Below, one piece after another: positions 7,838 through 35,769 of a stretch of 64,000 nt of DNA (the stretch's first letter is position 1; each line of letters begins with the position of its first letter). Below the pieces are notes generated by a model. It was not told the DNA's origin, searched no databases, and saw only the letters and a program-made list of their open reading frames with translations. The stretch spans positions 496,001 through 560,000 of the forward strand of contig WIUZ02000016.1 in the NCBI GenBank assembly GCA_015956445.1, read 5' to 3'. A program made the translations under genes and the position numbers. This DNA is from Thelephora terrestris. Taxonomy: Eukaryota; Basidiomycota; Agaricomycetes; Thelephorales; Thelephoraceae.

Positions 7838-10719
7838 TTAGAATCCACGAAGCTCACCATCTGAATCTAATCCATCCGAATCTGACTCACTCGGGATAGA
7901 CAAGATTTCCGTCGCTTGTTCAATCATTTGGAGGAGATGTTGGCAGTTCCCCATGTCCTCCACTGCCCCAAGCTTCTCAAAAACCTCGAGTGCGCCCAAC
8001 GCCTCGGACCTCACATCATCCAACCTGTGTTGCAGATACCAGATGCAAGCCTGCATTTCCATCCCGGAACCCATCTTGTATGCATCATGAGCCGCGTGCG
8101 ATTTGGCTTGTTCAATGTGGGCATTTGCATCGCCGAACTCCCCTTCATCGCGAAACATCCTTGCCATATCGTAATGATTCCAAAATAGTACACCTTGCCA
8201 ATTGAAAGGGGATGCGATAGTTATAGCTGTCTTGAAATGGTAAACGGCCTTCTCCTTCTCTCCCTTGCGACAATAAACGTTGCCAAGAAGGCGATGAGAT
8301 TGGCAGAGCTGATATTCTTGGCCTTTCTCAGGGAGAAGCTCGATCTTGCGTGACACGGTGTCTTCTGCGGCATCGAGCCGGCTGTCAAGAAAAAACAACC
8401 AAGCGAGGCTCTGCAAACAATTTAATTGTTCCTCCACGTCCCCGAGCTGTTTAAATATCTCCAATGCTTCCTCCGCCTGTTGTATCCCTTCCTCATACAT
8501 TCCTAGACTCCAATTTGCATACGACAGATTTTGTAGCATTTCAGCAACCCCAAAGTCATTTCCCCGCTCTCGCTCAAGGGTTAAAGCGTGGAGAAGGAGA
8601 CGTTTGTATTCAGCGTCGTTTCCCATTGCTCCAGACAACTGCGCGAGCCTAAACAGGCATTGAGCCTTGGAGGGATGACCATCCGGAAGGCCTTGAATCT
8701 TTATCCCCAACGTGGTTTGCCGTGGTTTATGCCAACGCAGGTGGTGTAGGAAGTTACCGCAAGCATCCCAGACATTGACTGCGTCCGTGTCGATAGACGT
8801 GAAAACGTCGAGCAGGTGCTCAACGTTCACATCCTCGAGCACAATCCACTGTGTTTCTCCAGACAAGGATCGGCTAGGATCAGGATCGACAGACAACCGA
8901 GTGAAGTAATGATCCTTGGTCGTGCAGAGGAGCGGAGATGCATTTGGATCTCGGGGACGGAAGTAGTCCCGAATCGGCGCCAACATCGTGATGAAGCCAC
9001 TGCTTCGGTGCGTCAACGAGAGAGCGCAGAACTTGTCAAAGATGTTCTCTCTGTCGAAGAGGGCGGGGAAAAGCCAGCCGAGATTTTTCTCACCCACACC
9101 CTGTGGGAAGAAAGCGACCACTCCGAGGAGGTTGCGAGCGTTTGGGCCGAGTTTGCGGAATGTGGGGGAAGCGAGCGACAACTCGATCGTTGCTGCTAGG
9201 CTCTCGTTGTGATCCGTACAAAGCACCTGCGCCCGTCGTTCGTCCCACTCCTTGGCCAGTCGATCGTGATTCCAAACATTGTCGGATGCGGTGGTGGCGA
9301 GTAGCGTTATCGAGAGCGCGTGAAAGTCCAGGCGCTGGAGAAGGTTGTCGATTATCACAGACCGCTCGTCGTTACCGTAGATTCCGTAGAAGATTTCGCG
9401 TGCGGCCTCCATTGATAATGTTGGGATTCGTGGGCGTTTGCAGTACCGGGGGACACTTGTCATGCGGGAAGTGATACAGAGGCATAAGGTTTTGAATTGG
9501 CACAGTTCGTCCACCACTGCGTAGATCTCTTTGTGATTTGGTCCTTGGGGATCGAGAATCGACTCGGCGTTGTCGAGGATTATGAGCGTTTCCTTGGAAG
9601 AAAGAAACGGACGCAGGGGTACCAGATCCTCAGGGTTGTCGACCCCCGCACCGATGACCTTGGACAGTCGGGCGAGGAAATGAACACGCGAAGCGAGGAA
9701 CTGCTCGCAGCGAATGAATCGACGATTATCTCCGAATCGTGCCTTGATGCGGTCGTCTTCGAGGACAGTGAGCGCAATCGACGTCTTCCCAATCCCCCCT
9801 GCGCCGATGAGGGCGATGGACTCGAGCTTTTTGGCATGTCCGACAACCTCCTCGATTAACTCACCGCGTCCGAAAAAGGCCTTCGGCGCTGGAGGAGGCA
9901 ACTCTCCTGGAGGGGTGCTATCAAGATATAAGTCTATGGATCTCATTGTATGTATTGTCACTGACCTAGCTTGGACCTACGTGGTGGTTAGTGGTCTTGT
10001 GTAGGCGGGGAGGGGGACTCCGGAAGTTACACATACCGAGTGAGCACCTTCTCGGATCGCCGATACATTCCTGTAGGTACCCGCAGCCATCATATGGCCA
10101 CTGAGCGCCAACTCTGTCTGGAAGCACGCCGTTGGTGGATGCCAAAGTACCGAACTGGTCGAACGTACCTGGAACACTTTAAGGACCTCGTCGAGCTCTT
10201 GCCTCCAGCCCGCAATCGCATCCTTCTCGTTCTTCGCGTTAAAGAACCCTAGGACCGGATTTTGTTTGCCCTTCCCTTCGACCTTCTTCTGGATCTCACC
10301 GATGGTGCTGCGATCGAGACCTTAGTAAGCGTACCGCTCGTCGTGCGTGTTGCTAATTCAAAACTCACGTTGTCAGTTGTTCGATGGCCTTGAGCGTAAA
10401 ACCGTCGGGTTCGACTGATCGGTTCGCGTTCAACGCACGGTCGAGTGCTTCACACACACGAGCGCAGTACAGCCCAAGACCGACAAACCCTTGTTTGTTG
10501 CTGATCGTGTCCTGAGTGAACGTGAATCGGGAGCTGTTCGTCGAGCAACAGAAGGGAACGTACCCTGATCATATTCAAGAGGGCACAAGCAGCACCCAAA
10601 GCGATTTGGGCCGGCGCGAAACCGCCAGCGTCCTTCGCAGCGGTCAGAAGTTGGATGGCCATATCCAACTTTCGCAGGACGTCATCGGACCCTTTGGATT
10701 GTTGGGATGTTGAAGCCAT
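7838..10719 (-). CDS. NLR-1: STAND P-loop NTPase with TPR tail
   Basis: This is an intact five-exon gene (10719-10564, 10511-10369, 10307-10169, 10117-10037, 9976-7838; introns 51-61 bp) giving 885 aa. Residues 1-170 form a predicted all-helical N-terminal domain (start MASTSQQSKG). NLR-type proteins of basidiomycetes often carry a HeLo/MLKL-like bundle here; that identity is inferred. Next come the FFGRGELI entry motif, Walker A GAGGIGKTS, Walker B LIILDNAE, CITSR (sensor-like), and the AxSITLLA segment. A winged-helix-like region (LLGVVAFFPQGVGEKNL) follows, then TPR-like helices from about residue 590 (e.g. ERERGNDFG, EKGQEYQLCQSHRLLG). The tail ends SDSDGELRGF. The expected role is ligand-triggered oligomerisation in self/non-self or antagonist response. 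Sister copies stand on both sides in the same direction. Confidence 0.9.
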
Positions 10720-11553: not shown

Positions 11554-14072
11554 TTAGCAGGGATCGGAAGATGCATCGCAGCTAGAAGTCTCACCACCAA
11601 AATCCGTCTCGTTCGAGATTGGGCTTTCCGTTGCCTTTTCAATTTCCTGGAGGATCCCTCTGCAGTCCTCTATATCCTTCGCCGCTCCAAGCCTCTCATA
11701 GATCTCGAGCGCGCACAAGACCCCAGATCTTGCCTCTTCCAGCCTGTGCTGCCGATGCCAAACCCGAGCCTGCATCTCCATCGTGCGACCCAGGTTGTGG
11801 GCGCTATCAGCCGCGTACGGTTTGGCTTTGTCGATGTGGGCGTTCGCATCGTCGAACTCGTCTTGGTCGCGAAACAGCCAGGCCAGGTCGTAATGGATCC
11901 AAAACAGTTCACCTTGCCAGTCGAAAGGGGTTGCGATCGCTAGGGCCATCTCGAAATGGCAAACAGCCTTCTCTTTCTCGCCCTTGGAGCGGTAAATCGT
12001 GCCAAGGAGGCGATGAGATTGGCAGAGCCGGAATTTTTGGCCTTTCACGGGGAGGAGTTCAGTCTTGCGTGATACAGCGTCTTGCGCGGCGTCGAGTTGA
12101 TTGTCGTCGAGGAACAACCGAGCGAGGTTATCCAGGCAAATCGCTTGTCCCGCCGCATTTCTAACCGTTGGAACGCTCCCAATGCTTCCTCCACCTGTGG
12201 AATTCCTTCTTCGAGGAGTCTGAGCTTCCAATTTGCACGGGATAGGGCTCTTAACAATACAGCCGCCTGAAAGGCGTCCCCGCGTTCCCTCTGAATTGTC
12301 AGGATGCACTTAAGGACCCGTTTTTCTTCCACGTGGTTTCCGACCGATCCAAGCCATTTGGCCTTGAAGGAATGTCCATCAGGAAGAGCTTCGACCTTCA
12401 ACCTCAGCACCATTTGCCGCGGTTTCTGCCAATGGAGGTGCTCCATGAAGGGATAACAACCGTCCCAGACTTCGCATGCGTCCACGTCGATGGTGAGTTC
12501 ACGGACGTTCGGGCCGAGTTTGCGGAATGTGGGGGAAGCGAGCGAAAATTCTATCGTCGCCGCTAGGCTCTCGTTGTAGTCCACCTGGAGTACCCGAACG
12601 TGGTGTTTGTCCCACTCCTTCGCCAGTCGGTCGAAGCTCCACAGGTTGTTGGATGCGGTGGTGGCGAGTAGTGTTATCGAGAGCGCAAGAAAGCCGAGGC
12701 ATCGGCCAAGATGGTTGATGCCAGACCGCTCGCTATCATCGTAGATGCTGTAGAAGATGTCGCGTGCGGCCTCCATCGACAACGTGGGGAGTTCCAGCCG
12801 CGTGCAGTGTAAGGGAATAGTGGAGATCCGGGAGGTGATGCAAATACAGATGTTGCTGGTGTTCCTCAGCTCCTTCACCATTGTGTGTAATTCCCGGGCG
12901 TCGGTTCCCTGGGGGTCCAGAATCGACTCGGCGTTGTAGAGGACGATAAACATTTCCCTGGAGCATAGGAATGGTCGGAGAGGGGCCAAGCCCTTGGAGT
13001 GCGCGATACCGGCACCGGTAACGCTTGAAACTTGACGAAGGAAATTGGCTTGGGGAGCTTGGAACTGGTCGCAGCGGGGATGAAGCGGCGGTTGTCGCCA
13101 AACCGTTCTTTTATGCGCTCGTGGTGAAGAACGGCAAGAGCGAGGGACGTTTTCCCAATTCCGCCAGTGCCAATGAGAGCGATGGGGCTGAGGGTGGCTG
13201 CGAGACCAACAATCTTCTCGATGAGCCCATCGCGACCGAAACAGGCTCTCGGCCGAGGGGGACGCAATTCTCCGGGAGGGGAACTATCGAAATCATAAGG
13301 CTATGGATCTAATTTCAAGTATTGTCGCTGACCTGGCTTGGATCTAGATGATGGTCAGCATTCTTGTGTTGACAAGGAGGAAGTTACGCTTACCGAGCGA
13401 GCACCTTCCTGGATCTCCAGTACCTTCGCATAGGTACCCGCAACCATCACATGGGTATTGCCAGCTCGGTCTGAAAGCACGACGTTAGTGAATACCAAAC
13501 AGGACCGACCGAACGTACATTGAACACTGGAAGGACGTCAACGAGCTCTTGCCTCCAGCCCGCAATCAGATCCTTGTCGCCTTTTGCGTTTAAGAATCCT
13601 ACGACCCGGTGTTGTTCGCCCTTATCTTCGACGTTCTTCTGGATCTCACCGATAGTTCTTCGATAGATAAAGGTATCGGTAAGCAGGCTTCTCAGCGTAC
13701 ATATAGACGCTTCAATTCGCGTGGTCAGTTGCTCGATGGCCCTAAGCATGGACCCGTTGAGTTCTTCTGATTTTCTTTCCGTTTAACCCTCGGTTGAGCG
13801 CTTCACAAACACGAGCGCAGAACAGTCAAAGACCGATAAAACCCTGTTTGTTGCTAATGGTGTCCTGAATAAACGTAAATCGGAAGCTCTTCGTCGAGCA
13901 AAAGAGGTGAACATACCCTGATCATATTCAAGAGGGCACAAGCAGAGCCTAAAGCAATTTGGGCCGGCGCTACACCGCAAGCGTCCTTCGAAGCGGTTAG
14001 GAATTGGATGGCCATATCCAACTTTCGCAGAACGCCATCGGGCCCGTTGGTTCGCTGAGAGGTCGAAGCCAT
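11554..14072 (-). pseudogene. NLR-like pseudogene psi-2 (short type)
   Basis: This is the second copy of the short NLR type, from ATG 14072 to its stop at 11554. It shares with psi-1 the TGA in exon 2 (13826-13828), the extra base in exon 2 and the loss of about 110 residues around the winged-helix region. It has its own damage: two extra bases at about 13075-13083, inside the conserved RRFIRC stretch, and one lost base at about 12157-12162 in the TPR part. Unlike psi-1 it keeps an intact Walker A (GGIGKTSLA) and lacks the TAG in the TPRs. Walker B reads VLYNAE instead of ILDNAE, so the acidic Asp is lost. The private lesions show that both copies decayed further after being duplicated as an already dead gene. 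Confidence 0.9.
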
Positions 14073-14274
14073 GGATGACGCTGGTGGTGGATACGAGGAA
14101 AGCGTGACGCGTAAGCGATAAGGAAGAGCCCTAACTGCAGACAAACGTGGGCGGTCGTTTTGCAGACATGGCCGTTGGGTGAAGACCGTGTAATCGCTCA
14201 AGCGCTCAAATTCCTTTTATAAGGTCCGCTTCCGAGTTCTCTTCACCCCTCACTCATCGGACTCAAGCCTTCCA

Positions 14275-15153
14275 GTGGATCGTCTGTTGAATCCTTGCAG
14301 GTGCAAAAGCGTTTGGGAATGTCGATGCAATCGTTCGGCTGGCACTTCGGATCAAGGAAGCCTTGAAACTCTCGCTCGGGTCGCTGCTTCCATTAGTGTC
14401 AAGCCCCCTCCTAACCACCCAGAACCCCCCTCGGTCCGCAAGAGCTGTTGCGCCTCCAAACACCAACCCGATAACGTGAAGGACTCTGGACTTATAAGAG
14501 GACCAGATCTTCCTCGTTTGCTCATTGATCCAGAACACACGTTTTCTTCACGTCGTGATGCCCCACCTCTCACAACCCCAGCGTCCATCCCCTCAATCAA
14601 ATCCGTCATACTGTTGGCGGGTACAGGATGCTCTTGCGGTTTCGAATGCGCTTGTCCGGGCTGTGTAGAACACCGTGTACCTTCCTCATCCACGGAAACA
14701 CAAGAAGGTCCTAACCTCAGATCTCGTTCTGACGACTGCCCTCACTGCGTCGACCGTTTGGGAGGCGTCGCACTGCCCGAGCCGGATTCGCCCTCGCAGC
14801 GACCGTCTATCATCGAAAGCTTCATCAATCGTATGCCGAGTTTGCCTCCACCTCCGAAGAATCGCTCTGCGCATATAGACCCGACCAACGTCACTGTCTT
14901 CCCTGCCGGTCTGTTCTCTGTCGATCTAGGTGGGCCATGCAACGGCGAGCAACAGGAGAAGGCCCGGTCTGCTTGGGGCCTGGTGGACATCCCGAGGCTT
15001 GAATGTTGCGGAGGCGCGTGTGGGTGTCCGGATGGGAGGTGTGGAGGCGGGAGTTCGTGCGCCGGATGTTGCGTGGAAGGAGATGACTCTTCCGATTCCC
15101 CTGGTGGTTCTAACGCGTTAGCTGCTGAACCAATGAGTCGTGCGAATACGTGA
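14275..15153 (+). pseudogene. Copper-fist factor (Cuf1-like) C-terminal fragment, copy b
   Basis: An open frame of 292 codons, rich in Cys. It carries CRCKSVWECRC near the start. At about residue 120 it has CSCGFECACPGCVEH, which fits the C-x-C-x3-C-x-C-x2-C-x2-H copper-sensing motif described for fission yeast Cuf1. A second cluster near the end reads CGGACGCPDGRCGGGSSC. These belong to the C-terminal half of basidiomycete copper-fist activators. The N-terminal copper fist (Cys-rich DNA-binding finger) is absent upstream: the sequence left of about 14230 is the NLR upstream region. So this is a captured gene piece, not a complete regulator. It lies head to head with psi-2, 202 bp apart. The frame is fully open, so expression as a truncated protein cannot be excluded; the true start is uncertain. 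Confidence 0.75.
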
Positions 15154-15157
15154 CCGG

Positions 15158-15894: not shown

Positions 15895-18859
15895 TCAGGG
15901 GTGGGATACCCGTTCAGATTCCCAGTCAGAATCTTGAGAGGGGTGCTGGGTGCTGTCTAACACGCTAAGGTGGGGGGACAGAGTTAGCAGGGGTAAGGGA
16001 TGGAATCCACAAAGCTCACCATCTGAATCTGATTCACTCGAGATCAACTCGCTTTCCATCGCTTCTTCGATCCATTGGAGGAGATGCTGGCAGCGCCCCA
16101 CGGGCCCCACTGCCCCAAGCTTCTCATAGATCTTGATTGCACCCAACGCCTCGGACCTCGCGTCGTCCAGCCTGTATTGCCGATACCAGATCCAAGCCTG
16201 CATTTGCATCCCGAAACCCAGATTGCGTGCATCATGAGCCGCGTGCGATTTGGCTTGTTCAATGTGGGCATTTGCATCGCCGAACTCCCCTTCATCGCGA
16301 AACATCTGTGCCATATCGTAATGATTCCAAAATAGTACACCTTGCCAATTGAAAGGGGATGCGATAGTTACAGCTGTCTTGAAATGGTAAACGGCCTTCT
16401 CCTTCTCTCCCTTGCGACAATAAACGTTGCCAAGAAGGCGATGAGATTGGCAGAGCTGATATTCTTGGCCTTTCTCCGGGAGAAGCTCGATCTTGCGTGA
16501 CACGGTGTCTTCTGCGGCATCGAGCCGGCTATCACAAAAAAACAAGGTAGCGAGGCTCTGCAAACAGTTTGATTGTTCCTGCACGTCCCCGAGCCGTTCG
16601 AACATTTCCAATGCTTCCTTCGCCTGTTGTATTCCTTCCTCATACATTCCTAGACTCTGATTTGCATACGACAGATTTTGTAGCGTTTCGGCAATCCCAA
16701 AGTCATTTCCCCGCACTCGCTCAAGGGTTAGGGCGTGGAGAAGAAGATTTTTGCGTTCAACGTAGTTTCCCATTGCTACGGACAACTGTGAGAGCCTGAG
16801 CAGACATTTAGCCTTGGAGGGATGACCATCGGGAAGGCCTTGAATCTTTGTCCCCAACGTGGTTTGCCGTGGTTTATGCCAACAAAGGTGGTGTAGGAAG
16901 TTACCGCAAGCATCCCAGACGTTGACTGCGCCCGTGTCGATCGACGTAAAAACGTCGAGCAGGTGCTCAACGTTCACATCCTCGAGCACAATCCACTCTG
17001 TTTCTCCGGACCTGGGATGGTCAGGATCAGGATTGACGGACAACCGGGTGAAGTAATGGTCCTTGGTTGCACAGAGGAGCAGAGATGCTTTTGGGTCTCG
17101 GGGACGGAAGTAGTCCCGAAGCGGCGCCAGCATCGTGATGAAGCCACTGCTTCGGTGCGTCAATGAGAGAGCGCAGAACTTGTCGAAGATGTTCGCTCCG
17201 CCGGGGATGGTGGGGAAAAACCAGTTAAGGTTTTTTTCACCCACACCCTGTGGGAAGAAAGCGACCACTCCGAGGAGGTCGCGAGCGTTTGGGCCGAGTT
17301 TGCGGAATGTGGGGGAAGTGAGCGACAACTCGATCGTTGCTGCTAGGCTCTCGTTGTGATCCGTCCGAAGCACCTGCGCGCGTTGCTCGTCCCACTCCTC
17401 GGTCAGTCGATCATGATCCCAACCATTCTCGGATGCGGTGGTGGCGAGTAACGTTACCGAGAGCGCATGAAAGTCCAAGCGCTGGAGAAGATTGTCGATT
17501 ATCTCAGACCGCTCGTCGTTACCGTAGATGCCGTAGAAGATTTCGCGCGCGGCCTCCATTGATAATGTTGGGATCCGTGGGCGTTTGCAGTACCGGGGGA
17601 CACTTGTCATGCGGGAAGTGATACAGAGGCATACAGTTCTGAATTGGCACAGTTCGTCCACCACCGCGTAGATCTCTTTGTGATTTGGTCCTTGGGGATC
17701 GAGAATTGACTCGGCGTTGTCGAGGATTATGAGTGTCTCCTTGGAGGAAAGAAAGGGACGCAGGGGTACCAAATCCTCAGGGGTTTCGACCCCTGCACCG
17801 ATGACCTTGGACAGTCGGGCGAGGAAATGAACACGCGAAGCGAGAAACTGCTCGCAGCGAATGAATCGACGGTTGTCTCCGAATCGTGCCTTGATGCGGT
17901 CGTCGTCGAGGACAGCGAGGGCAATCGACGTCTTCCCAATCCCTCCTGCGCCGATGAGAGCGATGGGTTCGAGCTTTTCGGCATGACCGACAACCTCCTC
18001 GATTAGCTCACCGCGTCCGAAAAAGGCCTTCGGCGCTGGAGGAGGCAACTCTCCGGGAGGGGTGCTACCAAGATATGAGACCACGGATATCATTGTATGT
18101 GTTGTCACTGACCTAGCTTGAATCTACGAGATGGTTAGTGTTCCTGTGTAGGCGGGGAGGGAGAGGAAGTTACTCTTACCGATTGAGCACCTTCCTGGAT
18201 CGCCAATACGTTCTTATAGGTACCCGCAACCATCACATGGGTATCGATCGCCAACTCGGTCTAAAAGCGAAACTATGAGTGATCGTCTAACGGGGCAAGC
18301 TGGACGCACGTTGAAGATAAGGAGAATCCTGTCCAGGTCCCTCTCCCAAGCGGCGATCTTCTCTTTATCGTTCTTCGCGTGGAAGAGAGGTGAGGCTGGG
18401 CCTTGTTTACCCTGCTTGACGATTGCCTTTTGGATCGTTGACACAGCCCTGCGATTGGTATCTCAGGAACTGGGTCGTTCGATGTACTCATTGCTGGTTC
18501 AACTCACGTTGTCAGCGTCTCGATCGCCCCAAGGAGGTATCCGCTGAGATCCTCCGCTCGTTTCCCGTTCAACCCCCGGTCGAGAGCTCGGCATACATTG
18601 GCGCAGGATAGCCCGAGCTTGACGTACTCTTGGTCATTGGCCGCCGAGTCCTAAATAGATATGAACAAGAAGGTCGTCATCGCAAAGCGGGGGAGGTTAC
18701 CCTAATCGTGTCCAAAAGAACGCCGGCTGAACCAAAAATGGTCTTGGCTGGTCTGATGCCCGAGTTCTGCTCAGCGAGATTCAGAGCTCCGATGGATGCG
18801 GTCAGCGAGGAAAGTGTTCCATCGCGCCCTTCTGTCAGATGTGAGGAATTCACGGCCAT
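15895..18859 (-). CDS. NLR-2: STAND P-loop NTPase with TPR tail
   Basis: An intact five-exon gene: 18859-18701, 18650-18508, 18448-18310, 18260-18180, 18123-15895 (introns 49-59 bp), giving 916 aa. The N-terminal domain is of the second type, beginning MAVNSSHLTEGRDGTL, and is only weakly similar to the MASTSQ type. Exon 4 and the body are very close to NLR-1. The body shows FFGRGELI, Walker A GAGGIGKTS, Walker B LIILDNAE, CITSR, the winged-helix-like LLGVVAFFPQ segment and TPR units (EKGQEYQLCQ, RKGEKEKAVYHF). The C-terminus extends 30 or so residues beyond NLR-1 (FHPLPLL...). Inferred role: intracellular sensor or executioner of the fungal NLR class. The N-terminal domain probably decides the output, and its fold is not proven here. 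Confidence 0.9.
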
Positions 18860-21775: not shown

Positions 21776-24724
21776 TCAAAATCTTGAAAGTCTTCCAATG
21801 GGGTGCTGGGTGCTGTGCAATACGCTAAGGTGGGATGGAATTAGCAGGGGTAAGGGATGGAATCCACAGGGCTCACCATCTGAATCTAATCCATCCGAAT
21901 CTGACTCACTCGGGATAGACAAGATTTCCGTCGCTTGTTCAATAATTTGGAGGAGACGTTGGCAGTCTCCCACGTCCTCCACTACCCCAAGCCTCTCATA
22001 TATCTCTAGTGCGTATAACGCCTCGGACCTCGCGTCGCCCAGCCTGTGTTGCAGATACCAGATCCAAGCCTGCGTTTTCATCCCCTGACCCAGCCCGTAT
22101 GCATCGTAAGCCGTGTGCGATTTGGCTTGTTTGATGTGGGTGTTTGCTTCGCCGAACTCCCCTTCATCATGAAACATCCATGCCATCTCGTAGTGTATCG
22201 AAAATAGGTCACCTTTCCAATTGGAAGGGGGTGCGATCGTCAGGGCTGTCTTGAAATGGTCAACGGCCTTCTCCTTCTCTCCCTTGCGACGATATATACA
22301 ACCAAGGAGGTAATGAGATTCGCAGAGGTGAGATTCTTGGCCTTTCTCCGGGAGAACCTCGATCATGCGTGACACGGTGTCTTCTGCAGCATCGAGCCAG
22401 CTGTCATAAAGAAACGAGCGAGCGAGGCTCTCCAAACAAGTTAATTGGTCCCCCATGCGCCCGAGCCACTCAAACATTTCCAATGCTTCCTTCGCCTGTT
22501 GTCTTCCTTCCTTATACATTCTTAGACTCTGATTTGCATACGACAGACATAGTAGCGTTTCAGCAACCCCGAAGTCATTTCCCCGCTCTCGCTCAAGTTT
22601 TAAGACGCGAATAAGGAAACATTTGTATTCAGCGTAGTTTCCCATTCTTCCGGACAGCAGTGCGAGCATGAGCAGGCATTTAGCCTTGGAGGGATGACCG
22701 TCCGGAAGGCCTTGAATCTTTGTCCCCAACGTGGTTTGCTGTGGTTTATGCCAAAGAAGGTGTTGTAGGAAGTTAACGCAAGTATCCCAGACATTTACCG
22801 CGCCCGTGTCAATGGACGTGAAAATGTCCAGCAGGTGCTCGACATTCACATCCTCTTGCACAATCCAGTTTGTTTCTCCGGACCTGGAATGGTCAGGATC
22901 AGGATCAACGGACAACCGGGTGAAGTAATGGTCCTTGGTTGCACAGATAAACAGAGATGCTTGTGAGTCTCGGGGACGGAAGTAGTCCCGAATCGGCGCC
23001 AGCATCGTGATGAAGCCACTGCTTCAGTGCGTCAACGAGAGAGCGCAGAACTTGTCAAAGATGTTCGCTCTGTCAGAGATGGTGGGGAAAAGCCAGTCGA
23101 GGTTTTTCTCACCCACACCCTGTGGGAAGAAAGCGACCACTCCGAGGAGGTTGCGAGCGTTTGGGCCGAGTTTGCGGAATGTGGGGGAAGCGAGCGACAA
23201 CTCGATCGTTGCTGCCAGGCTCTCGTTGTGATCCGTCCGAAGCACCTGTGCACGTTGTTCGTCCCACTCCTTGGCCAGTCGATCGTGATCCCAAACATTG
23301 TCGGATGCGGCGGTGGCGAGCAGCGTTATCGAGAGAGCATGAAAGTCCAGACACTGGAGAAGGTTGTCGATTATCTCAGACCGCTCGTCGCTACCATAGA
23401 TGCCGTAGAAGATTTCGCGCGCGGCCTCCGTTGATAATGTTGGGATTCGTGGCAGTGCCGGGGGACCATTGTGATGCGGGAAGTGATACAGAGGCACACA
23501 GTCTTGAACTGACATAGTTCGTTCACTACTGCGTATATCTCTTCATGATTTGTTGCCTGGGGATCGAGTATAGACTCGGCGTTGTCGAGAACTATGATCA
23601 TCTCCTTGGAGGAAAGAAAGGGACGCAGGGGTGTCAGATCCTCAGGGTTTTCGACCCCCGCACCGATGACCTTGGACAGTCGAGCGAGGAAATGAACACA
23701 CGAAGCGAGGAACTGCTCGCAGCGAATGAATCGACGGTTATCTCTGAATCGTGCCTTGATGCGGTCGTCGTCGAGGATAGTGAGGGCAATCGACGACTTC
23801 CCAATCCCCCCTGCACCGATGAGAGCGATGGACTCGAGCTTTTCGGAATGGCCGACAACCTCCTTGATTAGCGCACCGCGTCCGAAAAAGGCCTTCGGCG
23901 CTGGAGGAGGGAACTCTCCGGGAGGGGTGCTATCAAGATATGGGGCCATGCATATCATTGTATTTGTTGTCGCTGACCTAGCTTGGACCTACGTGGTGGT
24001 TAGTGGTCTTGTGTAGGCGGGGAGGGGGAGGAAGTTACACTTACCGAGTGAGCACCTTCCTGGATCGCCAATACATTTTTATAGGTACCCGCAACCATCA
24101 CATGGGTATCGATCGCCAACTCGGTCTAAAAGCGAAACTATGAGTGATTGTCGAACGGGGCAAGCTGAACGCACATTGAAGATAAGGAGAATCCTGTCCA
24201 GGTCCCTCTCCCAAGCGGCGATCTTCTCTTTATCGTGCTTCGCGTGGAAGGGAGGTGAGGCTGGGCCTTGTTTACCTTGCTTGATGATTGCCTTCTGGAT
24301 CGTTGCCACAGTCCTGCGATTGGTATCTCAGGAACTGGGTCGCTCGACGTACTCGTTGCTGGTTCGACTCACGTTGTCAGCGTCTCGATCGCCCCAAGCA
24401 GGTATCCGCTGAGGTCCTCCGTTCGTCTCCCGTTCAACCCCCGGTCGAGAGCTCGACATACATTGGTGCAGGATAGCCCGAGCTTGACGTACTCTTGGTC
24501 ATTGGCCGCCGAGTCCTAAATAGATATGAACAAGAAGGTCATCATCGCAGAGCGGGGGAGGTTACCCTAATTGTGTCCAAAAGAACGCCGGCTGAACCAA
24601 AAACGGTCTTGGCTGGTCTGATGCCCGAGTTCTGCTCAGCGAGATTCAGAGCTCCGATGGATGCGGTCAACGAGGAAAGAGCCCTATCGCGCCCTTCCGT
24701 CAGATGTGAGGAATTTGTGGCCAT
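21776..24724 (-). pseudogene. NLR-like pseudogene psi-3 (long type, recently broken)
   Basis: Starts at ATG 24724 with the second N-terminal type (MATNSSHLTEGRD) and ends at 21776. The body is close to NLR-1/2/3, with Walker [10 protein letters not shown], Walker B IIVLDNAE and full TPRs. Two lesions break it. Seven bases are missing at about 23450-23460, after the PRHC position that precedes IPTLS in other copies, which shifts the frame. A CGA Arg codon in the THRSSGF motif became TGA at 23024-23026. All else is readable, so inactivation looks recent. The tail ends HPIGRLSRF as in NLR-3, so psi-3 and NLR-3 are probably closest relatives. Confidence 0.88.
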
Positions 24725-26200: not shown

Positions 26201-26998
26201 CCGGTTTTTTTCCCCCTTCATCTTCGTGTCTACTAGTTTTTGGGTTCTCATCTTCTATTACTCGGGTCTTAGTAGCGACGGTAGTCCTTTCTCAACCCAT
26301 TCATGTACAACAAGGGTGGAATTTAAAAATGTAACCTATCTTCGCTTCCGTGGCCGAGCGTTGGGAGGTGAGAACTCTCGTTAGGGCTGTCTTTTTATTG
26401 GGCTTCGGATTCGGTCCACCCCTAGCTCGTTTATACCTCAGTTTCGGGCGTCTTCGGGTTTTGGGCGAAAAGCTATACTTCAGGACAAAGGCCCAGAGTA
26501 AAATTCGATCGGTCGACCCTCGTTCCCGTTAACGTTGAGAACCGAATACTCAGAAGTTCTGTTGCATCGTGGTAAGAAGCTGTGTTCATCCCAGGCCTGA
26601 ACGTGCGTCCAGCAAATGGTGGTAAATGTTCCCGTGGAGTAGAACAGAGCGGACCCCCCGCCGTCAGCCTTCCGTTGAATGAACTGGGTATAGTTTACAA
26701 TCGCAAGAGAACAGAATAGATCTCATAGCGGAATGTCCACGACGCGTAACAAAGGTATCCTAGTAGTACATCTGCAGAGTAAACGAGTATCCAAAAGAAA
26801 AAAGGAGGGATGTCAATAAGCCTACCGGCAGAGCGTGTGGTGAGAGGGTACATGATACATATCAACGGCGAATGATGGAGCGATAACTACAGCAATGAGC
26901 GGATACAAGTGGCCAGCTGGCACGATATAGAAGGTCGTTGGGAAAAAATAGGATGAACGAATGGCGCTCAGGGGTGAGACACCCGTTCAGATCCCCGG
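26201..26998. repeat. Spacer repeat between copper-factor fragment and NLR-3
   Basis: Closely related to 15158-15894 throughout, with the same order of the fragment 3' flank and the NLR 3' flank. No gene is supported. Confidence 0.65.
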
Positions 26999-29938
26999 TC
27001 AAAATCTTGAAAGTCTTCCAATGGGGTGCTGGGTGCTGTCCAATACGCTAAGGTGGGATGGGATTAGCAGGGGTAAGGGATGGAATCCACAAAGCTCACC
27101 ATCTGAATCTGATCCACTCGAGATAGACCAGCTTTCCATCGCTCGTTCAATCGTTTGGAAGAGTCTTTGGCAGTCCCCCACGTCCTTCGCTGCCCCAAGC
27201 CTCTCATAGATCTCCAGTGCGCGCAACGCTTCGGACCTCGCATCGTCCAGCCTGTGTTGCCGATACCAGATCTGAGCCTGCGTTTCCATCCCGCGACCCA
27301 GGTTGTATGCATTGTCAGCCGTGAGCGATTTGGCTTGTTTGATGTGGGCGTTTGCGTCGTCGAACTCCCCTTCATCGCAAAACATCGCTGCCATGTTGTC
27401 ATGAATCCAAAATAGTTCACCTTGCCAATTGAAAGGGGATGCGATCGTTAGGGCTGTCTTCAAATGGTAGATGGCCTTTACCCTCTCTCCCTTGCGACGA
27501 TATATCTGTCCAAGAAGGTGATGAGATTGGCAGAGCTGAATTTCTTGGCCTTTCTCCGGGAGAAGCTCGATCTTGCGTGACACGGTGTCTTCTGCGGCAT
27601 CGAGCCGGCTTTCAAGAAAAAACAAGTCCGCGAGGCTCTGCAAACAATTTGATTGTTCCTCCACGTCCCCGAGCTGTCCAAATATCTCCAATGCTTCCTT
27701 CGCCTGTTTTATTCCTTCCTTATACATTCCTAGACTCTGATTTGCATACGACAGACATTGTAGCGTTTCAGCAACCCCAAAGTCATTTCCCCGCTCTCGC
27801 TCAAGTGTTAAGGCACGAATAAGGAGACATTTGTGTTCAGCGTAGTTTCCCATTGCTCCGGACAACTGTGCGAGCTCGAGCAGGCATTTAGCCTTGGAGA
27901 GATGACCATCGGGAAGACCCTTGATCTTTGTCCCCAACATGGTTTGCCGTGGTTTATGCCAACAAAGATGGTGTAGGAAGTTACCGCAAGCATCCCAGAC
28001 ATTGACTACGCCCGTGTCAATAGACGTGAAAATGTCAAGCAGGTGCTCAACATTCACATCCTCTAGCACAATCCACTGCGTTTCTCCAGACAAGGATCGG
28101 CTAGGATCAGGATTGATGGACAACCGGGTGAAGTAATGGTCCTTGGTCGCACAGAGGAGCGGAGATGCTTTTGGGTCTCGGGGACGGAAGTAGTCCCGGA
28201 TCGGCGCCAGCATCGTGATGAAGCCACTGCTTCGGTGCGTCAACGAGAGAGCACAGAACTTGTCAAAGATGTTCGCTCTGCTGGGGGTGGTGGGGAAAAG
28301 CCATTCCAAGTTTTTCTCACCCACACCCTGTGGGAAGAAAGCGACCACTCCGAGAAGGTCATGGGCGTCAGGGCCAAGTTTTCGGAACGTGGGAGAGGTG
28401 AGTGATAACTCGATCGTTGCTGCTAGGCTCTCGTTGTGATCCGTCCGAAGCACCTGCGCCCGTTGTTCGTCCCACTCCTTGGCCAGTCGATCGTGATCCC
28501 AAACATTGTCGGATGCGGCGGTGGCGAGCAGCGTTATCGAGAGAGCATGAAAGTCCAGACGCTGGAGAAGGTTGTCGATTATCACAGACCGCTCGTCGTT
28601 ACCGTAGATTCCGTAGAAGATTTCGCGCGCGGCCTCCATTGATAATGTTGGGATTCGTGGGCGTTTGCAGTACCGGGGGACACTTGTCATGCGGGAAGTG
28701 ATACAGAGGCATAAGGTTTTGAATTGGCACAGTTCGTCCACCACTGCGTAAATCTCTTTGTGATTTGGTCCTTGGGGATCGAGAATCGACTCGGCGTTGT
28801 CGAGGATTATGAGCGTTTCCTTGGAAGAAAGAAACGGACGCAGGGGTACCAGATCCTCAGGGTTGTCGACCCCCGCGCCGATGACCTTGGACAGTCGAGC
28901 GAGGAAATGAGCACGCGAAGCGAGGAACTGCTCGCAGCGAATGAATCGACGGTTATCACCGAATCGTGCCTTGATGCGGTCGTCTTCGAGGATAGTGAGG
29001 GCAATCGACGTCTTCCCAATCCCCCCTGCGCCGATGAGAGCGATGGACTCGAGCTTTTCGGCATGGCCGACAACCTCCTCGATTAGCGCACCGCGTCCGA
29101 AAAAGGCCTTCGGCGCTGGAGGAGGCAACTCTCCGGGAGGGGTGCTATCAAGATATGAGACCATGAATATCGTTGTATTTGTTATCGCTGACCTGGCTTG
29201 GACCTACGTGGTGGTTAATGGTTTTGTGTAAGCGGGGAGGGGGAGGAAGTTACACTTACCGAGTGAGCACCTTCCTGGATCGCCAATACGTTCTTATAGG
29301 TACCCGCAACCATCACATGGGTATCGATCGCCAACTCGGTCTAAAAGCGAAACTATGAGTGATTGTCGAACGGGGCAAGCTGAACGCACGTTGAAGATAA
29401 GGAGAATCCTGTCCAGGTCCCTCTCCCAAGCGGCGATCTTCTCTTTATCGTGCTTCGCGTGGAAGGGATGTGAGGCTGAGCCTTGTTTACCCTGCTTGAT
29501 GATTGCCTTCTGGATCGTTGCCACAGTCCTGCGATTGGGATTTCAGGAACCGGGTCGCTAGACGTACTCGTGGCTGGTTCAACTTACGTTGTCAGTGTTT
29601 CGACCGCCCCAAGCAAGTATTCGCTGAGGTCCTCCGTTCGTCTCCCATTCAACCCCCGGTCGAGAGCTCGACATACATTGGCGCAGGAAAGCCCAAGCTT
29701 GACGTACTCTTGATCATTGGCCGCAGAGTCCTAGAAAATATGAACAAGAAGGTTATCATCGCAGAGCGGGGGAGGTTACCCTAATCGTGTCCAAAAGAAC
29801 GCCGGCTGAGCCAAAAACGGTCTTGGCTGGTCTGATGCCCGAGTCCTGCTCAGCGAGATTCAGAGCTCCGATGGATGCGGTCAGCGAGGAAAGAGCCCTA
29901 TCGCGCCCTTCCGTCAGATGTGAGGAATTTGTGGCCAT
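26999..29938 (-). CDS. NLR-3: STAND P-loop NTPase with TPR tail
   Basis: An intact five-exon gene: 29938-29780, 29730-29588, 29528-29390, 29340-29260, 29203-26999 (introns 49-59 bp), giving 908 aa. The N-terminal domain is of the MATNSSHLTEGRD type, shared with NLR-2 and psi-3. The body has FFGRGALI, Walker A GAGGIGKTS, Walker B LIILDNAE, CITSR, the winged-helix-like LLGVVAFFPQGVGEKNL segment and six or more TPR-like helical pairs. The tail ends HPIGRLSRF. The first 150 residues of the NTPase are almost the same as in NLR-1, although the N-terminal exons differ. Function is inferred from the family: nucleotide-dependent assembly after ligand recognition by the TPR tail. Confidence 0.9.
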
Positions 29939-32718
29939 TGTCGAAACGCGTGGCAGCCGCGAGGAAGTTGTACGGCGCAAAGTCGGTGAGGGAAAACCCG
30001 AACGCTGGAGATGCGCGCCGGGAGGGCGTCACGGTGTCCCATGCGAGCATAGGATTGGGTGAAAGCGGTGTGATCGCTCGAGCGCCCAAATTCACCGCAG
30101 CAGACCGTCAGCCTCATCCGTGCTCTGCTGAACCTTCGACGGATGTCCCACCTTCCTTCCTGCATCTGTTGCCGTCTCAACTGGGAACGAGTGCTGGGTC
30201 CATAGGCTCTGTCACGGTCCCTCGTCGCGTCTATCTCCGTTTACACATCCACCGGCTTCTGTTTCGTCGGCTGGATCAAGACAAGTCCCAATTTCACCGC
30301 TTCCGCCGGTCTAGGAAGTACCACATCTCAGCACACCGCCTGACTGGTACAAGGAGCTCCAGAGACCCCCTCATTTTCCCTGCTCGACGTTCAACTCATC
30401 CCCTCCCAACCAAAGCGAATCGACGCCTTTCCGCGTGACGGCTAGTCAGTTGAGGGTCACGGTCTGGAAGTGAGCTAGTTCCGACGACGCGTAAATTCAT
30501 TCGTACTGATCTGTACCCGTAGCCAAGAAGACGAGAGTGAGGGGTTGGTGAATTCGACCGGAATAGAGCTATCTACAAGCGCAGGGAATAATGAACAAGA
30601 GATTCCGTTGGATTTATGTCCTCTCTGCCGCCCATCTCAAAGATTTATGGCATCGGGCCTACAGAACCTCGCAACGCCCTAGAAGATCCGTAGACCACCG
30701 TACGATGGCTCAAAGATAATGGGCACTGCAGTGGTTCCTAACCGTACCCAAAAATCACCCCATTATTCTTGTTCCGTTGCTCGGCCTTCGTCCTGGCCCC
30801 TGGTTAACACGGAACCTCTCGAGACTACGTTCGACGCCCTTCAAGTCACAAGTGCTCCACGCATCTCTCCTTCCCCTCCCGGAGTCGGGGTCAGGGGAAA
30901 AGCCAGCTTCGCCGTATTCCACTCCTTCCCGTTCAAACTCCCAGTCGACACCGATACAGTGAGAGGAGAAATTCGGGGAAGAATTCGTTGAGGAATCCCA
31001 GTAGTGGCGTCGACCCGTGTATTCTCCATAGCTGTTTCTGTCGGACAGGACGTCGGGACGATGAGTGTGCGATGTCTCATGAGGCTGGAACCATTCTTCT
31101 GGAACGGTACCCGCTTTCACGTTGCGGCCACAGCCACGAACTATCTGAGAATCCACCGTGGCTTTGCAGGTTCAACGTCTGTCGTCATATTGTTGTTCGT
31201 CGATTCGATGATACAGAGTCAGGTTCAATGAAGATTGCGACGCGTGCCTTCCACACTTGTGAAGTTGTGGCTGAGAATTGAACCGGAACGAACTTCCAGA
31301 CCTTTGTCTGGTGGGTTGCAACAGTGACCCCTCGTATACCGCCCGACATAGTTCCAAGACTCCGCCCCCATCCCCCTTCCCCGTTCTTCTCACATAAATC
31401 ATAAACGGTGTAGGTGGCTTCACACCAATACTTGTCCTTTGGTGGGTGGATCACCTTGAATTCGCCGAACCAACAAGAAGAGTTATCTGCGTACCATATC
31501 TCTGAAGACGTCCGGGAAAGAAACGTCTATGACATGTTCTTCGGGAGAGGTGTTCATGAGAGCGACCGCGAAGGAGCTGGGGAAGATGACCATGAGGCAA
31601 CGGCCCAGCACTCGTTAGGACTTCCCTTGCCTGTTTACCAGTTCACTCCTCCACAACTGTAAGTCACCGCCTTCACCGGGGACCAGCGTCTTCATGCGAC
31701 GCCGACTCGCGACTCGGGAACGCATGTAGCATGCTAAGGACGATAGTTCTGTGCTCCTTCGCAACAATCGCAATCGTGCTGCTTCCCCTTGGCTTGAGAC
31801 TCAGCGAGCGTCTTTCCACAACGCCGTCAATTTTTTCCAGGACTCTGGGAGTTCGGAGCGGATGCTCCCCGTTACCACGCTTAAATCCCTCCCAAGACTT
31901 TGAATCTCTCATAAGAGTTGGAATCCATGGTAGCGTTGGTTCTGTGACTAGAGGATGTCATCTGCTGAGGCATTCAGGCGCAAATATGTGATCCGCTTAC
32001 TTGCCCTCGACTCGAGCAACTGACGGTAAATAATTTCGGATCAACTCTGCACATTATCGTCGAATTTTGCGGTCTGTTTGACCGTGAGATTCACCACGAA
32101 GAGTGGACAAATTTCATTGTCGATCCATGACATAGCTTGGGTGGCCAAATCTGCTGCGTGCCCCGCCCAAGCGCGGCGTAATGAGGGTCCCGTATAATTT
32201 GTAAAGTCCTGCATGCCCGCGGATAACGGGTGTGTATCTTTTGCAGTCTTCGTTCTCACGCTTTTCACTAGACCGCCGTCAGCCTTCAGTTGAAATGAAC
32301 TAGGTCTAGCTTGGGGTTGCAAGAGAGTAGAATAGAGTTGATAGCGGAACGTCTGCGACGCGTAACAAAGGTATTCTACATCTAAAGAGTAAACGAGTAT
32401 GCAAAAGAAAAAAACGAGGGATGTCAATAAGCCTACCGGCAGAACGTGTGGTGGGAGGTTACATGATACATATCAACGGCGAACAATTGAGCGATAACAC
32501 AGAACAACATACAGATACAGCGGGCCAGTTGGCACGTCTTTGGGGAAGAGAAAACGACCAATGTTGCGTTCAGAGGGAACTCCGTTCAGATCTTTAATCA
32601 GGATCTTGAGAGTTTCCCATTGGGGTGCTGGATGCCGTACTATATGCTAAGGTGGGACAGAGTCAACAGGGGTACCGGTAAGGGATGGAATCGTGGCCAG
32701 GAAGCTCACCATCTGAAT
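29939..32718. repeat. 2.8-kb spacer with decayed repeats
   Basis: Same layout as 18860-21775: NLR upstream region, a repeat at 30180-30700, a decayed coding relic at 30700-31670, spacer repeat at 31690-32300, and the NLR 3' flank. No intact gene. Confidence 0.6.
30700..31670 (-). pseudogene. Decayed multi-copy gene of unknown family, copy 2
   Basis: Relative of 19740-20700 and 39250-40200. One minus-strand frame reads through the conserved part here: IHPPKDKYW, EATYTVYD and SLGTMSGGIRGVTVATHQ. The following part (near 30755-31156) has a different open frame. Splicing could join them, but no complete product was found. Family not recognised. Confidence 0.45.
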
Positions 32719-35534
32719 TCAAATAGAGCAGCTTTCCATCGCTTGTTCAATCATTTGGAGGAGACGTTGGCAGTTCCCCATGCCCTCCACTGCCTCAAGC
32801 TTCTCAAAAATCTGGAGTGCCCCCAACGCCTCCGACCTCGCATCGTCCAGCCTGTGTTGCCGATACCAGATGTCAGCCTGTATTCCCATGCCGCAACCCA
32901 GGTCGTATGCATCGTGAGCCGCGTGCAATTTGGCTTGTTCGATGTGGGCGTTTGCGTCGTTGAACTCCCCTTCATCACAGAACATCTCTGCCATGGTGTA
33001 ATGAATCCAAGATACTTCCCCTGGCCAATTGAAAGGGGATGCGATCGTTAGGGCTGTCTTGAAATGGTAGACGGCCTTCTCCTTCTCTCCCTTGTGATGA
33101 TATATGTTGCCAAGAAGGCGATGAGATTGGCAGAGGTGAAACTCTTGGCCTTTATCCGGGAGAAGCTCGATCTTGCGTGACAGGGTGTCTTCTGCGGCAT
33201 CGAGCAGGCTATCACGAAAAAACAAGTCGGCGAGGCTCTGCAAACAATTTAATTGTTCCTCCACGTCCCCGAGCCGTTTGAATATCTCCAATGCTTCCTT
33301 CGCCTGTTGTATCCCTTCCTTATACATTCCTAGACCCTTATTTGCATACGACAGATATTGAAGTGTTTCAGCAACCCCAAAGTCATTTCCCCGCTCTCGC
33401 TCAAGGGCTAGGGCGTGGAGAAGAAGACGTTTGCATTGAGCGTTGTTTCCAATTCCTCCGGACAACTGTGCGAGCCTGAGCAGGCATTTAGCCTTGGAGG
33501 GATGACTATCTGGAAGGTCTTGAATCTTTGTCCCCAACGTGGTTTGCCGTGGTTTATGCCAATAAAGGTGGTGTAGGAAGCCACCGCAAGCATCCCAGAC
33601 ATTGACTGCGTCCGTGTCGATCGACGTGAAAACGTCGAGCAGGTGCTCAACGTTCACATCCTCGAGCACAATCCACTGTGTTTCTCCGAAGGATTGGCTA
33701 GGTTCAGGATTGACAGACAACCGAGCGAAGTAATGATCCTTGGTCGTGCAGAGGAGCGGAGATGCATTTGGATCTCGGGGACGGAAGTAGTCCCGAAGCG
33801 GCGCCAACATTGTGATGAATCCATTGCTTCGGTGCGTCAATGAGAGAGCGCAGAACTTGTCAAAGATGTTCGCTCTGCTGAAGATGGTGGGGAAAAACCA
33901 GTCGAGGTTTTTTTCACCCACACCCTGTGGAAAGAAAGCGACCACTCCGAGGAGGTCATGGGCGTCAGGGCCAAGTTTTCGGAACGTTGGAGAGGTGAGT
34001 GATAACTCGATTGTTGCTGCCAGGCTCTCGTCGTGATCCGTCCGAAGCACCTGCGCCCGTCGTTCATCCCACTCCTTTGCCAGTCGATCGTGATCCCAAA
34101 CATTGTCGGATGCGGTGGTGGCGAGTAGCGTTATCGAGAGCGCATGAAAGTCCAAGCGCTGGAGAAGGTTGTCGATTATCTCAGACTGCTCGCCGTTACC
34201 GTAGATACCGTAGAAGATTTCGCGCGCGGCCTCCATTGATAGCGTTGGGATTCGTGGGCGTTTGCAGTACCGGGGAACAGTTGTCATGCGGGAAGTGATA
34301 CAGAGGCATACGGTTTTGAACTGGCACAGTTGGTCCACCACCGCGTAAATCTCTTTGTGGTTTGGTCCTTGGGGATCGAGAATTGACTCGGCGTTGTCGA
34401 GGATTATGAGTGTCTCCTTGGACGAAAGAAAGGGACGCAGGGGTACCAAATCCTCAGGGTTGTCGACCCCCGCACCGATGACCTTGGACAGTCGGGCGAG
34501 GAAATGAACACGCGAAGCGAGGAACTGTTCGCAGCGAATGAATCGACGATTATCTCCGAATCGTGCCTTGATGCGGTCGTCTTCGAGGACAGTGAGCGCA
34601 ATCGACGTCTTCCCAATCCCCCCTGCGCCGATGAGAGCGATGGACTCGAGCTTTTCGACATGACCGACAACCTCCTCAATCAGCTCATCGCGTCCGAAAA
34701 AGGCCTTCGGCGCCGGAGGAGGCAACTCTCCGAGAGGGGTGCTATCAAGATATAAGACTATGGATCTCGTTGTATTTATTGTCACTGACCTAGCTTGGAC
34801 CTACGTGGTGGTTAGTGGTCTTGTGTAGGCGGGGAGGGGAGGAAGTTACACTTACCGAGTGAGCACCTTCTTGGATCGCCAATACATTCTTATAGGTACC
34901 CGCAACCATCACATGGGTATTTACCGCCAACTCGGTCTGGCAGCACGCTGTTAGTGGATGCCAAACGGAACTGGCCGAACGTACCTGGAACACTTGAAGG
35001 ACCTCGCCGAGCTCTTGCCTCCAGCCCGCAATCGCATCCTTCTCGTTCTTCGCGTTCAAGAGCCCTCGGACCACGCTTTTTTTGCCCATCTCTTCGACCT
35101 TCTTCTGGATCTCATCGATGGTGCTGCGATCGTGACCTTGGTAAGCGTATTGCTCGGCGTGCGTATTGATAATTCAACACTCACGTTTTCAGTTGTCCGA
35201 TGGCCTGGAGCGTGGAATCGTCGAGTTCGACTGATTTGTTCGCATTCAACCCACGGTCGAGCGCTTTACACACACGAGCGCAGTACAGCCCAAGACCGAC
35301 AAACCCTTGTTTGTTGCTGATCGTGTCCTGAATGAACGTGGATCGGAATTCTTCGTAGAACAACAGAAGGGAACGTACCCTGATCATATTCAAAAGGGCA
35401 CAAGCGGCACCCAAAGCGATTTGGGCCGGCGCGAAACCGCCAGCGTCCTTCGCAGCGGTCAGAAATTGGATGGCCATATCCAACTTTCGCAGAACGCCAT
35501 CGGACCCTTTGGATTGTTGGGATGTTGAAGCCAT
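32719..35534 (-). CDS. NLR-4: STAND P-loop NTPase with TPR tail
   Basis: An intact five-exon gene: 35534-35379, 35327-35185, 35123-34985, 34936-34856, 34800-32719 (introns 48-61 bp), giving 866 aa. The N-terminal domain is of the MASTSQQSKG type, almost the same as in the left-edge copy. The body has FFGRDELI, Walker A GAGGIGKTS, Walker B LIILDNAE, CITSR, LLGVVAFFPQGVGEKNL, then the TPR tail (ERERGNDFG, KGEKEKAVYHF). It ends early at AMESCSI, without the acidic SESDSD tail of the other copies. It is the rightmost intact member of the array; right of it only relics remain. Role as for the other copies; its ligand is unknown. Confidence 0.9.
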
Positions 35535-35769
35535 CGACGACGCTCGTGGTGGATGCAAGGAAAGCGTGACACGTAAGCGATAAGGAAGAAGCCGAACTGC
35601 AAACAGACGTGGGCGGTCGTTTTGCAAAAGCTTCCGGCGCTATCGATCACTAGGTCCACGCCGGGCAACAGCCTGATCCGTGTTCTGCTGAACCTCTGAC
35701 GGATGTCATACGTTCAGCATCCGTCATAACCGGGAATGCGCACTACGTCTGTACACCTCTTCACTCATT

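Follow-up and report, generated by a model that had tools for sequence, protein, structure and literature searches.

The question raised by this locus of Thelephora terrestris is whether the N-terminal exons and the NTPase/TPR bodies of its tandemly arrayed receptor genes share one history or were combined by recombination. An initial annotation had proposed an exchange of the output domain by recombination or gene conversion, and this proposal is supported here by a breakpoint at the intron 3 acceptor and by conflict between trees. The DNA analysed is a 64-kb stretch, called the window below, which corresponds to contig WIUZ02000016.1, positions 496,001-560,000 (labelled C8:496001-560000).

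Organization of the receptor array

The STAND-TPR receptor genes, which are NLR-like, form a tandem array on the minus strand. It begins beyond the left end of the window and extends to 35.6 kb, with the genes in the order Nm2 and Nm1 (both left of the window), N0, psi-1, NLR-1, psi-2, NLR-2, psi-3, NLR-3 and NLR-4 (Table 1; N1-N4 and P1-P3 are short names for NLR-1 to NLR-4 and psi-1 to psi-3). Two more A-type members, L037 (C8 596 kb) and L038 (C8 477 kb), have the opposite orientation. Every array gene consists of four short exons at the 5' end followed by a long exon 5, with introns of about 50-60 bp between them. In NLR-1 to NLR-4 the spliced models use canonical splice sites and stay open for 885, 916, 908 and 866 aa, and psi-1, psi-2 and psi-3 are broken genes. 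The initial annotation had placed psi-1 within 7838-35534, and its position was found to be outside that interval, at the left of the window. The idea that one set of 5' exons is spliced onto several bodies was rejected, as every array gene examined carries a 5' set of its own some 0.73 kb ahead of exon 5.

Larger duplications are also present: the N0-psi-1 segment matches the N1-psi-2 segment over 7.0 kb at 91%, and 14217-18918 matches 25273-30017 over 4.8 kb at 90%. Duplicated Cys-rich ORFs, which by eye we take to be copper-fist-like, lie on the plus strand at 14194-15153 in the gap between psi-2 and NLR-2 and at 25190-26200 in the gap between psi-3 and NLR-3. To the right of the array, a kinase gene on the plus strand (41450-44286) matches Pfam Pkinase_fungal and is presumably of the FunK1 type.

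Table 1. Receptor genes and exchange-related features in the window (window coordinates).
Feature	Position	Strand	Basis or remark
NLR-4 (N4), whole unit	35534-32719	minus	
NLR-4, exons 1-5	35534-35379, 35327-35185, 35123-34985, 34936-34856, 34800-32719	minus	canonical splice sites
NLR-4, S-class cassette: ~0.1 kb upstream and exons 1-3	34985..35626	minus	exon models, identity, tree; left edge measured in psi-3 and Nm1 and projected onto NLR-4
NLR-4, exons 4 and 5: linker, STAND NTPase, TPR	32719..34936	minus	gene model; Pfam nSTAND1, TPR
Breakpoint interval, intron 3 position 45 to exon 4 position 3, over the intron 3 acceptor	34934..34940 (projected on NLR-4)	minus	max-chi2
NLR-3, whole unit	29938-26999	minus	
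NLR-3, N-class cassette, exons 1-3 (29938-29780, 29730-29588, 29528-29390)	29390..29938	minus	identity, tree, gene model
NLR-3, exon 4 (29340-29260) and exon 5 (29203-26999)	26999..29340	minus	gene model
psi-3 (P3), whole unit	24724-21914	minus	
psi-3, N-class cassette, exons 1-3	24175..24724	minus	flank comparison, gene model
psi-3, exon 4 and disrupted exon 5 (reading frame breaks off at about 23.4 kb)	21914..24125	minus	
NLR-2, whole unit	18859-15895	minus	
NLR-2, N-class cassette, exons 1-3	18310..18859	minus	identity, gene model
NLR-2, exons 4 and 5	15895..18260	minus	gene model
psi-2 (P2), whole unit	14072-11623	minus	
psi-2, degenerate S-class exons 1-3; stop in exon 2, GC donor	13519..14072	minus	
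psi-2, exon 4 and broken B-type body	11623..13470	minus	
NLR-1 (N1), whole unit	10719-7838	minus	
NLR-1, S-class cassette, exons 1-3	10169..10719	minus	identity, gene model
NLR-1, exon 4 (diverged) and exon 5	7838..10117	minus	identity, gene model
psi-1 (P1), whole unit	3911-1450	minus	
psi-1, degenerate S-class exons 1-3	3358..3911	minus	identity, gene model
psi-1, exon 4 and broken B-type body	1450..3309	minus	
N0, S-class exons 1-2 and most of exon 3; body left of window	1..539	minus	
Relic gene start: N2/N3-type flank (40225-38798), then S-type promoter and exon 1 start (38695-38486)	38486..40225	minus	

Two classes of N-terminal exons on one kind of body

Two deeply separated classes, S (MASTSQ type) and N (NSSHLTEG type), can be distinguished among the array genes by their exons 1-3. 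Comparisons were made between N0, N4, N1 and Nm1 (S4) and N2, N3, P3, Nm2, L037 and L038 (N6). As had been noted from the sequence, NLR-1 and NLR-4 belong to class S and NLR-2, NLR-3 and psi-3 to class N, by identity and by tree. DNA identity between S4 and N6 was 51-56% in exon 1, 61-65% in exon 2 and 54-57% in exon 3 (the exon 2 and exon 3 blocks were one base shorter than the final models), and identity inside either class was 87-100%. Introns 1-3 were 52-71% identical between S4 and N6 and 82-100% identical within a class. The first 600 bp of exon 5 were 86.7-95.7% identical between S4 and N6 and had no class split.

Synonymous divergence followed the same pattern. Across exons 1-3 of the ten genes, mean dS between S and N was 1.20 (0.93-1.51, 24 pairs), compared with within-class means of 0.07 for S (six pairs) and 0.16 for N (15 pairs). 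In exon 5 of the seven open-frame genes, a count from which the broken copies P1, P2, P3 and Nm1 and also L038 are excluded, the S-N means were 0.19-0.22 in three blocks (12 pairs in each) and the within-class means were 0.17-0.21.

The large exons had been described as nearly the same, which was generous wording: the bodies of NLR-1, NLR-2 and NLR-3 are indeed 84-87% identical to that of NLR-4 at the protein level, but psi-3 reaches only 76-79%, in two pieces. The description of psi-1 and psi-2 as genes with an S-type N-terminus and a clearly different body agrees with the present data, since their exons 1-3 have 76-89% DNA identity to the S class and their bodies are 66-69% identical to the other array bodies in the NTPase part. 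These exons 1-3 represent an older version of the S class.

The use of MASTSQ alone as a class marker was rejected. Six N-superclade genes (L007, L009, L041, L044, L048 and L057) likewise begin with MASTS, so the motif does not define a class genome-wide. A pattern search of the genome for the S start gave no match with a pattern that was too strict. The S and N forms are versions of one kind of domain and not different kinds of output domain.

Conflict between N-terminal and body trees

Congruence and breakpoints were assessed with AU tests and a max-chi2 permutation test, in place of GARD and RDP. The trees were built from the best-scoring part of the family, namely the best 30 of 80 listed body matches and, for N-terminal loci, the best 30 of 150 listed N-terminal matches. 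Among the 56 loci or units examined, three duplicates (L004, L029 and L023) were excluded, and L026 and L059, being the same gene, were combined under L059. This gave a tree set of 52 bodies, 45 of them with exons 1-3 and the other seven belonging to a class termed G. The matches L022, on a long contig (C12), and L023, on a very short one (C42, 23 kb), had equal scores and near-identical positions; the pair is possibly a leftover haplotype in the assembly.

In the tree of exons 1-3 (45 genes), the six S genes (S6) grouped together (100/99) inside a deep clade with L054, L055, L003, L022, L024, L030 and L008 (100/98), which lie on other contigs. The N6 genes also grouped together (100/98), with L045, L046, L043 and L042 as their nearest relatives. 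The body tree (34 rows) required three changes of the S label and three of the N label. AU tests on 27 shared genes rejected congruence in both directions, and the congruent trees that would have argued against separate histories were not found. On the body alignment, a clade of S6 (dlnL 181.6, p 1.4e-8), of S4 (dlnL 22.6, p 0.023) and of N6 (dlnL 54.6, p 0.001) was rejected in each case, and on the N-terminal alignment a clade of the array-A bodies was rejected (dlnL 129.3, p 4e-42). That S4 alone is rejected on the protein body at p 0.023 only is a point against the explanation preferred below.

DNA trees of the ten array genes separated S from N at 100/100 in exons 1-3. S4 was rejected in the NTPase block (p 0.008) and in the TPR block (p 0.009), and the TPR block also rejected N1 with Nm1 (p 0.002); a grouping of N0 with N4 was not rejected in the TPR block (p 0.155). 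The psi-1 and psi-2 bodies formed a clade with L043, L045 and L046, which have N-superclade N-termini, and with five G genes. This makes psi-1 and psi-2 look chimeric themselves. Placing psi-1 and psi-2 with L043/L045/L046 on the N-terminal alignment was rejected by the AU test (dlnL 138.0, p 7e-42).

Breakpoints and edges of the cassette

Breakpoints were mapped by the max-chi2 permutation test with 5000 permutations per run. When N3, N2, P3, Nm2 and L037 were compared with NLR-4 and L038, the switch in all five of these N-type hybrids was found between intron 3 position 45 and exon 4 position 3, within 6 bp of the intron 3 acceptor. The initial annotation had located the switch between exons 3 and 4, and both the drop in identity at the intron 3/exon 4 border and the max-chi2 position at the acceptor bear this out. 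Chance is excluded, since the max-chi2 values of the five hybrids were 182-200 and none of 5000 permutations was as high for any of them; the same zero count was obtained in all 15 runs. In NLR-1 and Nm1, compared with NLR-4 and Nm2, the switch comes later, at the beginning of exon 5 and within intron 4. Their exon 4 is diverged (79-83% DNA identity to the five hybrids), and the common body resumes only at these later points.

The upstream edge was mapped by max-chi2 in psi-3 and Nm1 to about 0.1 kb upstream of the ATG, which in NLR-4 coordinates is 88-93 bp upstream, where NLR-4 has gaps. Nm1 (S) and psi-3 (N) are 87-92% identical over about 500 bp of 5' flank, 52-71% identical in the cassette and 73-96% identical in windows of the body, and a tract with homologous sequence on both sides was seen in this pair only. 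The psi-3 flank is common to the S genes Nm1, psi-1 and psi-2; psi-2 and psi-3 are 84-99% identical upstream (with a 396-base gap), after which identity drops to 50-68%. The reverse arrangement was found in the relic gene start to the right of NLR-4, whose flank is 87% identical to that of N3 over 1.3 kb and whose exon 1 breaks off after 23 codons; no further exons of this relic were matched. All four combinations of flank and cassette are therefore present: S flank with S cassette (Nm1, P1, P2), S flank with N cassette (P3), N flank with N cassette (N2, N3) and N flank with S cassette (the relic). The two flank types diverge beyond about 0.3 kb upstream, and nearer sequence is partly common to all genes.

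Predicted domains of the cassette and the body

Exon 5 encodes an nSTAND1-type NTPase followed by TPRs. The Pfam nSTAND1 match had 30.9 bits against a cut-off of 27.1, whereas NACHT (16.2) and NB-ARC (18.1) were each below their own cut-offs, so the NTPase is by Pfam of the nSTAND type rather than NACHT or NB-ARC. The TPR matches were TPR_12 (39.5 bits, cut-off 30.1) and TPR_2 (31.2, cut-off 27).

For the N-terminal part, the spliced N0 sequence matched Pfam MLKL_N with an E value of 6.8e-6 and 26.1 bits, just under the cut-off of 27, and the spliced N3 N-terminus had no MLKL_N match in the Pfam search. At E <= 0.1, 8 of 16 N-termini matched MLKL_N. When a 16-row N-terminal profile was compared with PDB, seven of the ten sequences with E <= 10 were MLKL entries, including all of the best six (E 0.023-0.22, profile positions 88-172). 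Exons 1-4 thus seem to bear a weak resemblance to the MLKL four-helix domain. We take the exon 3/4 border to align to the last helix of the MLKL bundle, and for this reason exons 1-3 would hold most of the bundle and exon 4 its end and the linker. Because of this weak similarity, and of the literature on MLKL-like domains in basidiomycete NLRs (PMC9815663, in the parts available), the N-terminal part probably has a cell-killing role.

Exon 4, homogenization and the sensor end

Exon 4 of the five hybrids is as in N0 and N4 (88-92%). L038, which has N-type exons 1-3, carries a different exon 4 with 67-75% protein identity to L042, L045, L046 and L021. The array exon 4 is 50-67% identical to that of L018, L048 and L056 from the N-superclade and of L054 from the S-superclade.

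Some copies are nearly uniform at the front and less so behind. Between N0 and N4, identity is 98.7-100% throughout exons 1-4 and the introns there; along exon 5 it starts at 98.8% for the first 600 bp, declines to 95% over the following 600 bp and ends at 84-88% for the final 880 bp. For psi-1 and psi-2 the value is 100% in exons 1-3, and their bodies match at 90-95%. The mean dN/dS of exon 5 (21 pairs) was 0.40 in the first 80 codon columns, 0.12-0.23 in columns 40-320 and 0.58-0.74 from column 440 on, in the TPR region. This last value, together with a TPR-block tree that has no starred branch and is almost a star, suggests diversification and perhaps shuffling of the sensor end.

N-terminal variation outside the array

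Recognisable exons of this N-terminus were found in 23 of the 30 fetched bodies. The remaining seven (L039, L047 and L049-L053) make up class G and have a different 5' module in common, with several short exons, a Gly/Ser-rich start and, by eye, a probable coiled coil; its Pfam matches were weak and all below cut-off. Class G is a truly different, unrelated N-terminus on bodies of the same family. It occupies three places on the body tree (three changes), and a single origin was rejected on the NTPase tree (p 0.002), also when the array and L008 were removed (p 0.006).

The evidence for S/N exchange outside the array is weak. On the 52-row NTPase tree, the S-superclade label needs seven changes, at least five of them forced by starred branches. 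In the test outside the array, which leaves out L008 (a long branch) and the 12 array members, unity of the S-superclade on the NTPase was not rejected (p-AU 0.104). The correlation between N-terminal and NTPase distances over all 45 genes was 0.42, below the half-half controls of 0.66 and 0.77. Outside the array the same-gene correlation was 0.55, compared with 0.48 for the NTPase control and 0.73 for the N-terminal control, and the family-wide distance correlation thus gives no extra support for exchange there.

Origin of the mosaic genes

The mosaic structure of the array was observed directly, as were its breakpoints, the phylogenetic conflict and the four flank and cassette combinations. 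The explanation that we favour, and consider likely, is that a cassette of about 0.7 kb with the promoter and exons 1-3 was swapped among the array genes through homologous recombination, with ectopic gene conversion as the most likely route. The cassette, which exists in two deeply diverged versions, would consist of about 0.1 kb of promoter and exons 1-3, with most of the MLKL-like domain. The similar flanks and the conserved first codons of exon 4 would have served as starting points of the exchange, and its outcome would be receptors of one NTPase and TPR family that differ in the version of their front domain. Since both edges are visible in one pair, Nm1 and psi-3, we prefer gene conversion to simple crossing-over, though this choice is inferred. 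The breakpoint common to the five hybrids makes it possible that one or a few old events were spread by duplication, and the hybrids may thus be copies of such events and not the product of continuing exchange. In the first event, either the front part of the gene or its back part may have moved.

A rather unlikely alternative is that the bodies moved and not the fronts. In this case S and N would be two old lineages of array genes, and concerted evolution would have replaced and homogenized exons 4-5 of the S genes with A-type bodies, with the 5' exons untouched. This predicts the same tree conflict as transfer of the cassette, and it fits the likeness of exon 5 over the whole array and the near-star shape of the TPR-block tree; psi-1 and psi-2, with S exons and a different body, could be remnants of unconverted S genes. 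However, the sequences that flank the cassette on either side are similar in Nm1 and psi-3, and the two genes differ sharply within it. The relic and psi-3 show 5' flanks that are decoupled from the cassette, so the exchange has a left edge too, and the apparent chimerism of psi-1 and psi-2, given the company of their bodies, also speaks against their being plain remnants.

Two other explanations were considered. Rapid divergence of the N-termini under diversifying selection, with a conserved body and no recombination, could mimic two classes, but the mean dS of 1.20 in exons 1-3 against about 0.2 in exon 5 means that selection on the protein cannot explain the divergence. Introns 1-3 are split in the same manner, and each class has nearer N-terminal relatives elsewhere in the genome than the other class; selection alone was therefore rejected on dS and introns and has next to no chance of being correct. 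Chimeric joins among near-identical copies are a very improbable cause. The near identity of N0 and N4 over exons 1-4 could have confused an assembler, but the same junction recurs in five hybrids with 2.5-11% divergence from one another in exons 1-3, and this recurrence in differing copies led to the rejection of an assembly artefact as a likely cause. Moreover, one of the hybrids (L037) lies about 65 kb away in inverted orientation, the 35-49% divergence of S from N in exons 1-3 makes a chimera there unlikely, and in four genes the splice sites are canonical and the frame is open for 866-916 aa.

Exchange of the cassette may carry a selective advantage. A speculative extension, which we hold to be doubtful, is that the array works as a mix-and-match system in which diversifying TPR sensors are time and again re-equipped with one of several non-interchangeable executioner cassettes (S, N and, outside the array, the coiled-coil G), each with its own promoter start; S would assemble only with S and N only with N, and balancing selection would keep both versions of the cassette in the species. 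If this is true, the exchange would keep the signalling groups of the receptors insulated.

Comparison with known systems

N-terminal swapping in fungal NLRs is already known. In the parts available of Dyrka et al. 2014 (PMC4986451), NODs that are 80-99% similar are joined to distinct N-terminal domains, with several pairs per genome, and such pairs are read as recent swaps within birth-and-death evolution. The array described here is similar in that it has similar bodies with different N-termini. It differs from those cases, which involve different domain types at the protein level, in that the exchange concerns two versions of one domain inside a single tandem array and has its breakpoints at an intron acceptor and ahead of the ATG.

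The MLKL/HeLo/Goodbye-type superfamily was reported to be the most frequent in basidiomycete NLRs (PMC9815663, 2022, as far as available). Like those BaMLKL NLRs, the array genes would have an N-terminal domain of the four-helix type, here by weak sequence likeness, but the MLKL_N score of N0 is just under the curated cut-off (26.1 vs 27 bits). The words swap, shuffling and intron are absent from the main text of that paper. A review (PMC10197012, 2023) describes inter-genic recombination as frequent and, together with expansions, as a driver of birth-and-death of fungal NLR repertoires. Its accessible part stresses recombination of C-terminal repeats and contains no mapped N-terminal exchange, whereas the exchange in this array is N-terminal and mapped. 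Gene conversion in NLR clusters was named as a possibility in the accessible part of a 2025 study of Sordariales (PMC12258605). A mapped, exon-bounded exchange of an effector cassette in a fungal NLR array was not found among the titles and opening lines of abstracts searched, though this does not prove its absence.

Outside the fungi, gene conversion gives parts of the zebrafish NLR-B30.2 receptor genes different histories (PMC4852459, 2016, as far as available), and variants of the N-terminal peptide repeat are not bound to one group. In the zebrafish genes described in that portion the NACHT groups remain distinct and the C-terminal B30.2 domain is exchanged from group to group, whereas in the Thelephora array the N-terminal cassette differs and the body is common.

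Compared with the swapping that was inferred from protein domain comparisons in the available part of PMC4986451, what is new here is the anatomy at the DNA level. The visible edges and the reciprocal combinations in one array therefore make both mechanism and consequence directly testable, the former as the gene conversion tract and the role of introns and flanks, and the latter as whether a change of the front domain alters the assembly partners.
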